Shown here: piece by piece, positions 29,729 through 34,046 of the stretch
How positions within the stretch are numbered: position 1 is the stretch's first letter
Layout: each line of letters starts with the position of its first letter
From: Leucobacter muris
Lineage (GTDB): Bacteria > Actinomycetota > Actinomycetes > Actinomycetales > Microbacteriaceae
NCBI RefSeq assembly: GCF_004028235.1
Contig: NZ_CP035037.1
Location: 1,736,001 to 1,800,000 of the forward strand
DNA length: 64,000 nt
Direction of reading: 5' to 3'
The notes under the pieces: model-generated
Told to the model about the DNA's origin: nothing
Databases searched by the model: none
Seen by the model: the letters and a program-made list of their open reading frames with translations, nothing else
Program-made: the position numbers and the translations under genes

Positions 29729-30603
29729 GGCTCGCTCGCATCGGCGACCTCTCCGCACCGGAGCTCGCCGATTACACCCAGCTGACCGATGTCGCGCTGC
29801 GGCGCGTGCGCGAACCGGAGGAGGGGCTCTACCTCGCCGAGTCGCCGAAGGTGATCGAGCGCGCCCTCAACGCCGGCCATCGCCCGCGCTCCGTGCTGCT
29901 GCTCGAGGAGTGGCTGCCGCGCGTCGAACCGCTGCTCGCCGACCACCCCGACGTGCCCGTGTACGTGGGGGAGTCGCAGCAGCTCGAGGCGCTCACCGGC
30001 TTCCACATGCACCGCGGCGCGCTCGCGTCGATGCACCGCCCCTCGCCGCGCGACCCCGTCGAACTGCTGCGCGCCTCGAAGCGCGTCGTCGTGCTCGAGG
30101 ACCTCACCGACCATACGAACGTGGGAGCCATCTTCCGCTCGGTCGCGGCCCTCGGGGCCGACGCCGTGCTGCTCTCGCCGGCGTGCGCCGACCCGCTCTA
30201 CCGCCGCGCCGTGCGCGTCAGCATGGGCGCCGTGCTGCAGGTGCCGTGGGCCCGATTGCCGGAGTGGCCGGTCGCCGGCCCCATGTTCCGCGACGAGGGT
30301 TACGAGCTCACGGCGTTCGCTCTGCGCGACGACGCCGAAGATCTCGCCGACTACGCGGGGGAGTTGCCCGAACGTCTGGCGCTGCTGTTCGGCACCGAGG
30401 GCGCCGGGCTGTCGCGGAGGGCGCTCGCCTCGGCGGCGCGTTCCGTGGTGATCCCGATGGAGCACGGCGTCGACTCGCTCAACGTCGCGACCGCGGCCGC
30501 GCTCGCGCTCTGGGCAGTGCGCACCGCGGATCGCGCCGGGGACCTCAGCGCAGGCCGGGGCGGTGCTCCGGATCGCGCCGAGGGCCGGGGGAGCCGCCCG
30601 TGA
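29725..30603 (+). CDS. TrmH-family (SpoU) RNA 2'-O-methyltransferase
   Basis: A 292-residue SPOUT methyltransferase. SpoU motifs: NVGAIFRSVAALGADAVLL (motif 1, catalytic Arg), LFGTEGAGLS (motif 2) and IPMEHGVDSLNVATAAALAL (motif 3, knot with SAM site). An N-terminal L30e-like RNA-binding part precedes. Whether it modifies tRNA or rRNA cannot be told. GTG start overlaps the hydrolase stop; the last residues are Gly/Arg-rich. Confidence 0.9.
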   Translation: MRLARIGDLSAPELADYTQLTDVALRRVREPEEGLYLAESPKVIERALNAGHRPRSVLLLEEWLPRVEPLLADHPDVPVYVGESQQLEALTGFHMHRGALASMHRPSPRDPVELLRASKRVVVLEDLTDHTNVGAIFRSVAALGADAVLLSPACADPLYRRAVRVSMGAVLQVPWARLPEWPVAGPMFRDEGYELTAFALRDDAEDLADYAGELPERLALLFGTEGAGLSRRALASAARSVVIPMEHGVDSLNVATAAALALWAVRTADRAGDLSAGRGGAPDRAEGRGSRP

Positions 30604-31388
30604 TCGGCGGGGGCGGCCGCAGGCGGGCGCTCTGGTTCGCGATCTTCTGGATCGCCGTGGGTGTCGGATCGTACGTGCTCGGCGTGCAGCTCGAGGTGGG
30701 GCAGCGCGCCGAGGACAGCGTGCTGGACGCCGCGGAGTTCACCACCAGCCCGCCGCCGCCGTTGAACCTGGTCTCGATCCCGTCGGTGGCGATCGCGCTC
30801 GGCGTCGTCGCGGTCGTCGCCCTGCTCGCGCACGGCGTCAAGCGGGCGCTGGTCGTCACCGTGGTACCGGCGCTCGCCATCGTCGCCTCGCAGCTGCTCA
30901 AGCAGGTCTGGCTGACACGACCCCAGCTGTTCGACCTCGATGTGCCGAACACGTTCCCGAGCGGCCACATGACGGTGTTCGCGGTGGTGACGGCCGCGCT
31001 CGTCTGGGCGGTGCCGACACGGGCGCGGGGCTTCCTCGCGGTAGCGGGTGCCGTGCTGCTCTCGGCGGTGGGGTGGCAACTGCTCGCGTACGGCTGGCAT
31101 CGCCCGAGCGACGTGCTGGGCGGGCTCGCGCTCGGCACCACGGCGTTCGCACTGGCGTGCCTGATCCGGCCGGCGACGTCGCGGGGGAGCATCGTGCTCG
31201 GCCGCACGCTCGCGGTGGGCCTCGCGCTGGTCGGGTGGATCATGGTCGCCGCCGCGCTCGTGCTGGCGGCCGTCGCCGCGTGGAACGGCAACGCGGCGAC
31301 GCTCCTGAGCGCGGGCCAGTTCGGCTGCATCGGCGCGGCGACGCTCGCGTCGCGCACACTGCTGCTGCTCAGCGTGGGCCGAACCTGA
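30600..31388 (+). CDS. PAP2-family membrane phosphatase
   Basis: A 262-residue polytopic protein with the acid-phosphatase triad region: KQVWLTRP, FPSGHMTVF and GWHRPSDVLGG. About six helices. Such enzymes dephosphorylate lipid or prenyl phosphates (phosphatidate, undecaprenyl diphosphate). The GTG overlaps the trmH stop. The C-terminal third adds two helices not needed for catalysis. No terminator hairpin with a T-run follows. Confidence 0.87.
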   Translation: MIGGGGRRRALWFAIFWIAVGVGSYVLGVQLEVGQRAEDSVLDAAEFTTSPPPPLNLVSIPSVAIALGVVAVVALLAHGVKRALVVTVVPALAIVASQLLKQVWLTRPQLFDLDVPNTFPSGHMTVFAVVTAALVWAVPTRARGFLAVAGAVLLSAVGWQLLAYGWHRPSDVLGGLALGTTAFALACLIRPATSRGSIVLGRTLAVGLALVGWIMVAAALVLAAVAAWNGNAATLLSAGQFGCIGAATLASRTLLLLSVGRT

Positions 31389-31665
31389 CATAATCCGCAC
31401 CCGGGGAGGGAGACGCCGGAGCTGGCGAACGCGCTTCGAGCCCGAACCGCGCTCCGTGAGTCGGGCGCGGCCAGGAGCGTATTGCGCCGCGCACCGGCGA
31501 GCTTCGGCCCAGCCGGCATCGTCGACTTCGTCGACCGGCTTCGACCGACGATGTCCGACGATGTCCGACGAAGCATTCCAGCCGATACCGCACCGGAGCT
31601 CCGGGAATTCCAGCGGAGACTCCCGCAGGCGCGTTCACGGTCGCGCGTTCGTTACGGGGCCACAC

Positions 31666-31749
31666 GCTCCACTGCGAAAAGACCCACGGTGAGACGCTCC
31701 CACAGCTCGCTCATTCCCGGCCAGCCTGCTCCACAGCGAAAAGACCCAC
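31666..31749. repeat. 22-bp direct repeat pair, 62-bp spacing
   Basis: CTCCACTGCGAAAAGACCCA (within 31666-31687) recurs with one change as CTCCACAGCGAAAAGACCCA (31728-31749), just before the dif-like palindrome. Confidence 0.85.
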
Positions 31750-31766
31750 AGGCGCTTTCACCGCTT

Positions 31767-31812
31767 CGATTATCATGCACGAGGGCGCTCCGCGCCCAGT
31801 GCATGATAATCG
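31767..31812. repeat. Palindrome containing an inverted copy of the XerC-side arm
   Basis: Perfect outer arms of 14 bp (CGATTATCATGCAC at 31767-31780 and its complement at 31799-31812), plus an inner 6-bp stem GGGCGC / GCGCCC. The right outer arm is also the left part of the dif-like site. Confidence 0.9.
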
Positions 31813-31826
31813 ATATTATGTCAGCT
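31799..31826 (+). other. dif: Candidate dif site (XerCD chromosome-dimer resolution)
   Basis: 28 bp with the dif layout: XerC arm GTGCATGATAA (31799-31809), 6-bp centre TCGATA (31810-31815), XerD arm TTATGTCAGCT (31816-31826). E. coli dif has arms ending CATAA and beginning TTATGT; the actinobacterial form as I remember it contains GATAAT, four variable bases, then ATTATGTCA. All of that is present here. It lies in a gene-free gap. Confidence 0.75.
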
Positions 31827-32002
31827 TTCTGAGATGACCCGCCTCTCCCCCTCGCCGCCCCGCACCGCTCCGTCCGGCACCCCCCGACGCCCTCCGGCCC
31901 CTCGAGCGCCGAGGTTGCGTGACATCGTCGGGCTCCGGTCGAATCCGAGCCGTTGCGGCTCGCGCTTCGGTCCCGAGCCCGCCACGCCGAATTCGATCTG
32001 CA

Positions 32003-32059: not shown

Positions 32060-33385
32060 GTGCCGCACACCGATTCCGCGTCGACGAACACGTCGACGAA
32101 CGCCGCACCGCCGACTCCGGCGCGGCGCGCACTCGCACCGGATCTCGCGCGCGGCTGGATGCTGCTGCTCATCGCGATCGCGAACGTCTCGGTGTATCTG
32201 TGGGGGCACGACACTCCCCTGTACACGACCCATCCCTCCGACGGCTCCGCGCTCGATCGAGCGCTCTCGGCCCTGACGATCCTGTTCGTCGATGCGCGCG
32301 TCTACCCGATGTTCGCGTTCCTCTTCGGCTACGGCATGGTGCAGTTCGCTCGCTCTCGGGAGACGAGGGGCGTGCCGCTGGTGGCGGTGCGCGGTATGTT
32401 CTGGCGCAGGCACTGGTGGCTGCTGTCGTTCGGGTTCGTGCACGCGGCGCTGCTGTTCGCGGGCGACATCCTCGGCGCCTACGGGCTCGCGGGTCTCGCG
32501 CTCACGGCGGCGCTGTTCTGGCGCTCGGATCGCGTGCTGAAGTTCGCGGCGTGGACGATGTTCGCGCTCGTCGCGTTCGGTGCGGTCTCGTCGCTGGGGC
32601 TCGGGCTGCTGCTGAACGCGCTCGTGCCCGCCGACTCGCCGGCGTTGATGACCGCCGCCGACTTCGGCAGCACCGCCGACATGCTGAACGGCGTGCAGGG
32701 GTACGGCTGGGCGATGCTCGCCCGCATCGGCATGTGGCTCGTGTCGACGCCCGCGACGGTGCTGTCGCTGGTGGTGCCCCTGTGCATCCTGCTGGGCTGG
32801 CTCGCGGGCCGCCACCGCTGGCTCGAGGCCGCGGGCTCCCGCATCGGTCTCGGGGCCGTCGCCGGTTGGGGTATCCTCGTCAGCACGGTCGCGGCCGCAC
32901 CGACGGCCATGCTCTACCTCGGCCTGCTGCCGGCGCTGGAACCCGTCGCCTGGGCGATGATACTGCTCAACCAGTTGGCGGGCGCCGCGGGGGGCGTCGG
33001 CTACGCCGCGCTCTTCGGCGTGATCGGTCCTCGACTGCAGCATCGCGCCGGCGCGGTGTCGCGCGCCGTGGCCGCGGTGGGCAAGCGCTCGCTGAGCAGC
33101 TACCTGCTGCAGTCGGTGGTGTTCGCTCCCCTGCTCGCGGCGTGGGGCTTCGGCATGGGCTCGCGCATCAACACCGCGGCCGCGTTCGGGATCGCGCTCG
33201 GCGCCTGGCTGCTGTCGCTGATCCTCGCCGTGATCCTGGAGCGCCGCGGAGCGCGCGGTCCCGCCGAGGTGCTGCTGCGCCGGCTCACCTACGCGAGACT
33301 CGACCTGCCCGCCGCTCCCCTCCCCGCCGCTCCCCCGGCCCCGTCCACGGCACGGGCCGCGGACGATACGCCCAGCACCCGCTGA
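32060..33385 (+). CDS. DUF418 membrane protein
   Basis: A 441-residue polytopic protein with about ten helices. The pattern RALAPDLARGWMLLLIAIANVSVYLWG at the first helix, DARVYPMFAFLFGYGMVQ and the C-terminal VGKRSLSSYLLQSVVFAPLL match the DUF418 family, related to acyltransferase-3-like proteins. Function unknown. The N-terminal 20 residues are Ser/Thr/Ala-rich. The GTG start has a weak ribosome-binding site (CAGGGGG). Confidence 0.82.
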   Translation: MPHTDSASTNTSTNAAPPTPARRALAPDLARGWMLLLIAIANVSVYLWGHDTPLYTTHPSDGSALDRALSALTILFVDARVYPMFAFLFGYGMVQFARSRETRGVPLVAVRGMFWRRHWWLLSFGFVHAALLFAGDILGAYGLAGLALTAALFWRSDRVLKFAAWTMFALVAFGAVSSLGLGLLLNALVPADSPALMTAADFGSTADMLNGVQGYGWAMLARIGMWLVSTPATVLSLVVPLCILLGWLAGRHRWLEAAGSRIGLGAVAGWGILVSTVAAAPTAMLYLGLLPALEPVAWAMILLNQLAGAAGGVGYAALFGVIGPRLQHRAGAVSRAVAAVGKRSLSSYLLQSVVFAPLLAAWGFGMGSRINTAAAFGIALGAWLLSLILAVILERRGARGPAEVLLRRLTYARLDLPAAPLPAAPPAPSTARAADDTPSTR

Positions 33386-33437: not shown

Positions 33438-34046
33438 ATGTACGTGAAGATCTGCGGTCTGCGCGATACCACGATGGCCGCCCACTCGGTCGCCGCCGGC
33501 GCCGACGCCCTGGGGGTCGTCATGAGCCCGCGCAGCCCGCGCCACGCCACGCCTGCGCAGGCCGCCGAGGTCATCGCGGCGGCGCGGGCCTCGGATCGCG
33601 AGATCGACGTGGCGCTCGTGGTGAACCGCATGCCCGCGCTCGAGGCGGCCGAAACCGCCCGCGATCTGGGGTTCGACGTGCTGCAGCTGCACGGCTCCTA
33701 CGCGGCCGCCGATTTCGCGGCGGCGCGCGAGATCCTGCCGCGCGTCTGGCGGGCGACGTCGCTCGCGCAGCACCCCGGGCTGCGCTCCGGCGAGTTCGGC
33801 GAGGAACGCCTGCTCGTCGACGGCGCCTTCCCCGGCTCCGGTGAAGCCTGGGATCTCTCGCTCATCGACGGCGAGAGACTCGGCCGCGGCTGGCTGCTCG
33901 CGGGCGGCCTCGACCCCGACAACGTCGCCGACGCGATCGCCGCGTCCCGGCCGGCGGGCGTCGACGTGTCGAGCGGTGTCGAGCGCGCGCCCGGCGAGAA
34001 GGATCCCGAGCTGATCACCCGGTTCATCCGGGCGGCACGCGCATGA
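33438..34046 (+). CDS. trpF: Phosphoribosylanthranilate isomerase
   Basis: A 202-residue TIM-barrel isomerase of tryptophan synthesis. It has MYVKICGLRD (catalytic Cys), VVNRMPALEA, VLQLHGSYAA, LLVDGAFPGSGEAWDLSLI (catalytic Asp), LAGGLDPDNVADAI and VDVSSGVERAPGEKDPELI. Although short, all motifs are intact. It is apart from trpD at 36143 and other trp genes; actinobacteria with PriA may not need TrpF, so its presence may mean HisA is monofunctional here. An alpha/beta hydrolase overlaps its end (ATGA). Confidence 0.9.
   Translation: MYVKICGLRDTTMAAHSVAAGADALGVVMSPRSPRHATPAQAAEVIAAARASDREIDVALVVNRMPALEAAETARDLGFDVLQLHGSYAAADFAAAREILPRVWRATSLAQHPGLRSGEFGEERLLVDGAFPGSGEAWDLSLIDGERLGRGWLLAGGLDPDNVADAIAASRPAGVDVSSGVERAPGEKDPELITRFIRAARA

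Follow-up and report, generated by a model that had tools for sequence, protein, structure and literature searches.

The dif site of Leucobacter muris appears to lie in a composite locus with accessory Xer half-sites on its XerC side

The chromosomal dif site of Leucobacter muris is best explained as one part of a composite locus, in which the 28-bp recombination site is accompanied on its XerC side by an isolated XerD half-site and by an inverted copy of the XerC arm. We place the probability of this reading at about 80%. dif is usually treated as a stand-alone 28-bp site, and a first-pass annotation of the window (the whole stretch of 64,000 nucleotides analysed here, bases 1,736,001–1,800,000 of a genome that forms one contig of 3,211,982 bp) had reported it as such. 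That report proves correct as far as it goes, but the site belongs to a wider array of additional Xer half-sites, of which the annotation recorded one of two copies of the 10-mer ATTATGTNAR and overlooked a 15-bp inverted repeat of the XerC arm.

The dif site and its genomic context

The site and its neighbours are as follows (positions are those of the window).

31799–31826, plus strand: dif, the putative 28-bp XerC/XerD recombination site (unique 28-mer, one counterpart per congener, flip of KOPS-like polarity)
31799–31809, 31810–31815 and 31816–31826: XerC arm, centre and XerD arm of dif
30603–31388, plus strand: PAP2 phosphatase gene (PF01569), stop codon 31386–31388; the 5' end is that of the chosen frame, with no start codon assigned
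32060–33385, plus strand: DUF418 gene (PF04235)
33438–34046: trpF-like gene, next after the DUF418 gene

Read directly from the sequence, the 28-mer GTGCATGATAATCGATATTATGTCAGCT has exactly the 11+6+11 layout, with TTATGT on the XerD side, that the first-pass annotation had described, and its supposed uniqueness is borne out by a single copy in the genome at up to three mismatches. It lies at 1,767,799 of 3,211,982 bp (55% of the contig), with dnaA at 451–936, which fits a location opposite the origin, and is contained in a 671-bp gap between the PAP2 and DUF418 genes. The description of this location as a gene-free, A+T-rich patch is accurate for the intergenic position and for the site itself (10 of 28 bases are G/C), but the surrounding gap reads G+C-rich, so that the patch is little more than dif. 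An Rfam search of the window and a BLAST comparison of the PAP2–DUF418 gap with plasmids returned no matches.

A core pattern of dif has exactly one match in 51 of 53 congeners and none in the remaining two (G039 and G050), which were left out. Genus counts thus refer to 52 loci (51 congeners and the window), less one that ends at a contig end (L060) in counts over the upstream 500 bp. The family set outside the genus comprises 72 loci from 222 genomes with a dif match (231 less 9) and is not a random draw: 30 loci were returned by the search, 40 were picked from its list and 2 came from the genus search, with several loci from some genera. All loci counted are those whose dif matches the patterns used. 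A phylum-wide dif pattern matched just 20 of 298 genomes and is too strict for distant groups; half-site counts were therefore not extended past the family, except for 15 order-level loci. The gap between the PAP2 and DUF418 genes had been offered as a unit for alignment among relatives. When flanks were compared by script, a PAP2 gene preceded dif across most of the genus (a homologue in 48 of 52 distinct loci), but beyond the window a DUF418 homologue was found downstream in just two loci, those of its nearest relatives.

The genome encodes a XerC-like protein (TIGR02224, 326.5 bits against a cut-off of 335.15; TIGR02225, 282.8 bits) and a XerD-like protein (TIGR02225, 301.5 bits against a cut-off of 329.6; TIGR02224, 274.5 bits), both slightly below the equivalog cut-offs and above that of the broader NF001399 model (279 bits), as well as an FtsK_gamma domain (81 bits, above its cut-off). 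GC skew, which had been expected to reach an extremum at the site, differs weakly between the arms, being positive in 8 of 11 sampled left-arm stretches and negative in 8 of 9 from the right arm. Within the window it is below zero to the left and right of dif alike and becomes positive near 42–43 kb, so no sharp extremum was located at dif.

Polarity of a KOPS-like motif around dif

A candidate polarity motif was picked from words that switch strand preference at dif in this genome (sampled stretches and the window) and was then tested on relatives, whose loci, the window aside, took no part in the choice. The word CGGGGGAG (GGGGGAG) stood out, with 49 copies on the plus and 1 on the minus strand left of dif and 1 and 31, respectively, on the right; the window alone has 19 plus and 0 minus on the left, and 0 plus and 13 minus on the right. 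Two copies bracket the site.

31183–31189, plus strand: last GGGGGAG on the XerC side, directed at dif
31845–31851, minus strand: first GGGGGAG of opposite polarity on the XerD side, 18 bp past dif

Counted over 3 kb to each side of dif, or the part of it that a locus covers, the 52 genus loci (window included) have 139 plus and 0 minus copies upstream and 0 plus and 132 minus copies downstream, and the 72 other family loci have 107 and 0 upstream and 1 and 138 downstream; full 500-bp bins around dif give the same picture. GGGGGAG is almost perfectly polarised and is a candidate KOPS-like motif in Leucobacter and other family members, where copies pointing at dif from both sides would steer FtsK. 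Its polarity switch gives Microbacteriaceae a sharp marker for locating dif. The motif GGGNAGGG, the KOPS of E. coli, is also polarised at the genus loci, less cleanly than GGGGGAG (23 plus and 3 minus upstream, 4 plus and 21 minus downstream), and a further motif, GAGAAGGG, is too rare in the sampled stretches for its polarity to be judged. GGGNAGGG is named as the E. coli KOPS in the relevant passage of one study (PMC13342612), and GGGGGAG is absent from the main text of one architecture paper searched for it (PMC5993296).

The polarity switch, the uniqueness of the 28-mer and the single match in nearly all congeners uphold the earlier reading of a chromosome-dimer resolution site. Positions 31799–31826 are almost certainly the chromosomal dif, recombination being ascribed to it from the known family: the left arm would be bound by XerC and the right arm by XerD, and activation of XerD by FtsK would lead to the resolution of dimers.

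An accessory XerD half-site on the XerC side

The second copy of ATTATGTNAR in the window belongs to an isolated half-site beyond the XerC arm.

31383–31393, minus strand: accessory XerD half-site TTATGTCAGGT, standing on its own; it overlaps the stop codon of the PAP2 gene and is separated from the XerC arm of dif by 405 bp

Its 9-mer, TTATGTCAG, has two exact copies in the genome, one in dif and one at 31385–31393 on the minus strand. Fifteen other congeners have one to four copies each, dif included; five of them (G003, G004, G006, G020 and G034) have an additional copy no more than 500 bp from dif, G017 has one 1.4 kb away, and seven copies are found elsewhere across the 15 genomes.

The half-site recurs on one side of dif. 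Within 500 bp, an isolated XerD half-site is present on the XerC side in 24 of 51 genus loci and on the XerD side in 0 of 52, and the other family loci give 23 of 72 (representing 12 genera) against 0 of 72 (Fisher p = 1.3e-9 for the genus and 2.9e-8 for the family, uncorrected for kinship). The upstream 500 bp lack an exact half-site in 27 of the 51 genus loci and in 49 of the 72 from the rest of the family; one genus locus has its half-site 1,369 bp from dif (L065), and one family locus has an upstream half-site plus another at +577 (L100). An unbiased word count of the upstream 500 bp places parts of the half-site at the top of the list at k = 6, 7 and 9, while at k = 8 an unrelated word with scattered positions, AGAAGCCG (10 loci), ties for first place by ratio. 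The upstream 500 bp contain the 8-mer TTATGTCA/TGACATAA in 47 of 123 loci, the 500 bp downstream contain it in 0 of 124, and two stretches farther upstream in 2 and 3 of 124. The 48 half-sites within 600 bp upstream of dif comprise 37 direct and 11 inverted copies, at −44 to −534, and their distances cluster within ~530 bp of dif in scans to both 600 bp and 1,500 bp. The order-level sample, too small for a judgement, has a half-site upstream in 1 of 15 loci and downstream in 1 of 14, with no side preference. Around the dif site of E. coli K-12, TTATGTTA, TTATGTCA and TTATGTAA are absent within 2 kb on either side, and one TTATGTTA lies 3.2 kb away on the XerD side.

These counts bear on whether the half-site arose by chance or is one neutral sequence shared through ancestry, with the hairpin described below being a palindrome generated by template switching where forks meet. 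Such an account would fit the sister species of the window (L065 and L070), which have the same hairpin and half-site, and the XerC flank may be mutation-prone, as it is richer in short tandem repeats (420 bp examined; 18 of 51 genus loci, against 6 of 52 downstream). It is nevertheless highly improbable as a whole, and for the half-site it is already disfavoured by the upstream and downstream counts: 47 loci against none over equal lengths, in unrelated genes and gaps. Chance would supply the 10-mer 0.02 times per 64 kb, and it occurs twice in the window. A mutational origin is possible for the hairpin alone.

The XerC flank also varies in length and content. Within the 3 kb examined, the stretch from PAP2 to dif in congeners ranges from tens of bases to ~2.8 kb, with inserts that include a GNAT-like acetyltransferase gene and, in L067 and L071, a peptidase-like coding sequence (read from sequence). 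The window itself has two 45-nt direct repeats, 76% alike, at 31643–31749.

The half-site occupies unrelated contexts. In nine congeners it forms the codons ATT ATG TCA of the GNAT-like acetyltransferase gene (named by reading its sequence), followed by GCT in eight and GAA in one, and a tenth homologue near dif reads TTG ATG TCA GAA. Elsewhere in the nine genes, TCA accounts for 2 of 95 serine codons, ATT for 20 of 64 isoleucine codons and GCT for 51 of 270 alanine codons; TCA being rare and the other two not, the serine codon is the telling one. The half-site codons are kept across proteins down to ~52% identity. The half-site lies inside the span of the PAP2 match in L043 and L057 and overlaps the PAP2 stop codon in the window and L070, and the remaining congeners have it in gaps or other reading frames. 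Context classes, assigned by inspection, require 13 changes on a tree of PAP2 proteins covering 46 of the 52 genus loci (of the 48 with a PAP2 match, those with at least 140 residues matched). Given these unrelated contexts, the GNAT codons among them, the half-site looks repeatedly gained and kept.

Another protein sharing the XerD-arm sequence, such as a terminus-marking factor, might be the ligand of TTATGTCAG near dif, as the word is rare elsewhere (the seven copies away from the dif region in 15 congeners) and the motif is found in either orientation. However, in the family set the three variable outer bases of the half-site follow the dif arm of their own genome (2.1 of 3 matched, against 1.1 of 3 for the arms of other genomes), which is what binding by XerD would predict; the genus loci give no information on this point, with no own-genome match beyond background (2.21 against 2.19). 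We consider a different ligand very doubtful. With its observed position, one-sidedness, recurrence, unrelated contexts and codon retention, the accessory half-site is probably a selected docking site to which XerD would bind.

An inverted copy of the XerC arm

Closer to dif, the XerC arm is repeated in inverted orientation.

31766–31780, minus strand: perfect inverted duplicate of the XerC arm together with four bases of the centre (plus-strand sequence TCGATTATCATGCAC), 100% complementary with an 18-nt spacer
31783–31797, no strand assigned: inner G+C stem of the hairpin, GGGCGC-TCC-GCGCCC

Together with 31799–31813, the copy makes a perfect 15-bp inverted repeat able to form a 15-bp stem, with a DNA fold of −26.3 kcal/mol (z = −7.65). 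The 15-mer has exactly two copies in the genome, in dif and in the inverted repeat, and the next five matches carry two mismatches. The hairpin is genuine and duplicates the arm of its own genome: an inverted own-arm copy (12 to 15 of 15 bases) lies within 300 bp upstream of dif in 9 of 52 genus loci, and none is present downstream in the 52 (best 10 of 15). A strict hairpin pattern is matched by 7 of 54 genomes. In the two nearest relatives of the window, the inner spacer is of the same type and the loop differs; the arms are identical to those of the window in L065, and in L070 but for one compensating pair (C-G to T-A). L071 (L. coleopterorum) has two inverted copies but lacks an exact XerD half-site over 3 kb, in contrast to L070 (L. 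chironomi), which has both hairpin and half-site. Public genome contigs scanned for the hairpin plus dif yielded three Leucobacter records (L. coleopterorum, L. chironomi and a Leucobacter MAG), and the family and order sets contain no inverted arm copy at 13 or more of 15 bases, except for palindromic arms (L108 and L133). Extra XerC binding and cruciform formation are possible roles.

Two arrangements in relatives are more elaborate. L043 has three tandem units of ~92 nt between −249 and −64 from dif, each with one inverted XerC-arm copy, and L089–L091, from another genus, carry, ~45 bp upstream of dif, a dif-like site in inverted orientation (CTGACATAA-GAGNCN-TTAT) whose centre is unlike that of dif. 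A reading in which the two inverted elements of the window, XerC copy and XerD half-site, are one inverted dif split by an insertion was considered and dropped, because the two parts occur independently in most relatives and the XerD half-site is mostly direct; L089–L091, in which inverted XerC and XerD parts occur together, are the exception.

CTXphi has a folded attachment site, a hairpin with a XerC arm, and the hairpins described here could be the remains of such a structure, the extra half-sites being relics of mobile elements, either users of XerC/XerD or elements with dif as their target, that inserted on the XerC side and then decayed. Several observations would accord with this origin, namely the location of all the extras counted within 500 bp of dif in genus and family on the XerC side, the tandem units of L043, the inserts of up to ~2.8 kb between PAP2 and dif, and the altered-centre site 45 bp upstream in L089–L091; in Acinetobacter, an insertion sequence family is described that sits 5 bp away from pdif sites, on their XerC side, and also occurs near chromosomal dif sites (PMC10132070). 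However, had a dif-using element been integrated, a XerC-arm-like GATAA should lie beside the half-site at the proper spacing. None of the 37 direct half-sites has one, so no element with dif-like sites of like orientation at its two ends was found; of the inverted half-sites only three, all in one genus, have it. The clustering of half-sites within ~530 bp and their persistence within host-gene codons, down to ~52% protein identity, also count against relics, as does the absence of matches in viral contigs to the TGCA-type hairpin pattern (that arm type only). Descent from mobile elements is thus unlikely.

Proposed role of the accessory half-site

A role for the half-site can be proposed from the asymmetry of dif. 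Complexes arriving along the right arm would meet XerD first, and those arriving from the left would meet XerC first. With a half-site between the last KOPS-like motif on the left and dif, SMC or FtsK from the left would meet XerD too, and would there be unloaded or stopped. GGGGGAG does not occur between half-site and dif in any of 24 genus loci (three without any GGGGGAG in the available flank) or 24 family loci; as the motif is sparse in that interval with or without a half-site (7 copies in 47 loci, against 9 in 76), its absence is weak support. The occurrence of half-sites in both orientations argues against a strictly oriented contact.

More broadly, we tentatively suggest that the Microbacteriaceae dif may be a composite terminus site, in which the half-site balances the asymmetry of dif so that XerD meets SMC or FtsK from either replichore, having been repeatedly gained in different genes and gaps, with hairpins of the inverted XerC arm as a further, less frequent accessory. 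If this holds, selection would maintain a second XerD address at the terminus. Close relatives that have or lack the half-site, in either orientation, would offer a clean natural experiment on the encounters of XerD, SMC and FtsK in the terminus region of Actinobacteria. Among the matches listed in a literature search, titles and abstract openings describe no accessory XerD half-site beside dif, which is not proof of absence.

Comparison with known Xer systems

The locus resembles CTXphi and other Xer-using elements in its hairpin with a XerC arm and in the paired inverted dif-like sites of L089–L091, but unlike in those elements, its direct half-sites have no adjacent XerC arm. In B. subtilis, several XerD sites are spread across the terminus, whereas this genome has one extra exact half-site, counted as exact copies of TTATGTCAG, 405 bp from dif, and its relatives place theirs on the XerC side. 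The likeness to the B. subtilis sites, judged by sequence, lies in a XerD-type half-site near the terminus and apart from dif; those sites serve there in the unloading of SMC complexes by XerD near the terminus, as summarized in passages of later studies (Karaboja et al. 2021, via PMC12322038, PMC8357415 and PMC8242196), and a passage of another study suggests a more general unloading of SMC at dif (PMC13342612).

The Leucobacter site shares its 11+6+11 layout, the TTATGT of its XerD side, its occurrence as a single copy, the switch in motif polarity and the presence of FtsK-gamma with the two-recombinase XerC/XerD dif of E. coli, B. subtilis and Actinobacteria, as portrayed in passages of a study that gives CACGCCGATAATGCACATTATGTCAAGT as the suggested dif of Frankia (PMC3025954). 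It differs in the extra half-sites on its XerC flank, which those passages do not mention. Extra DNA beside a Xer core site is also a feature of the plasmid sites cer and psi, where, in the account consulted in part, ~180 bp of accessory DNA controls the reaction at the core and cer uses PepA and ArgR (PMC5357621); in contrast to cer, the extra element in Leucobacter is a Xer half-site, and it resides in the chromosome.
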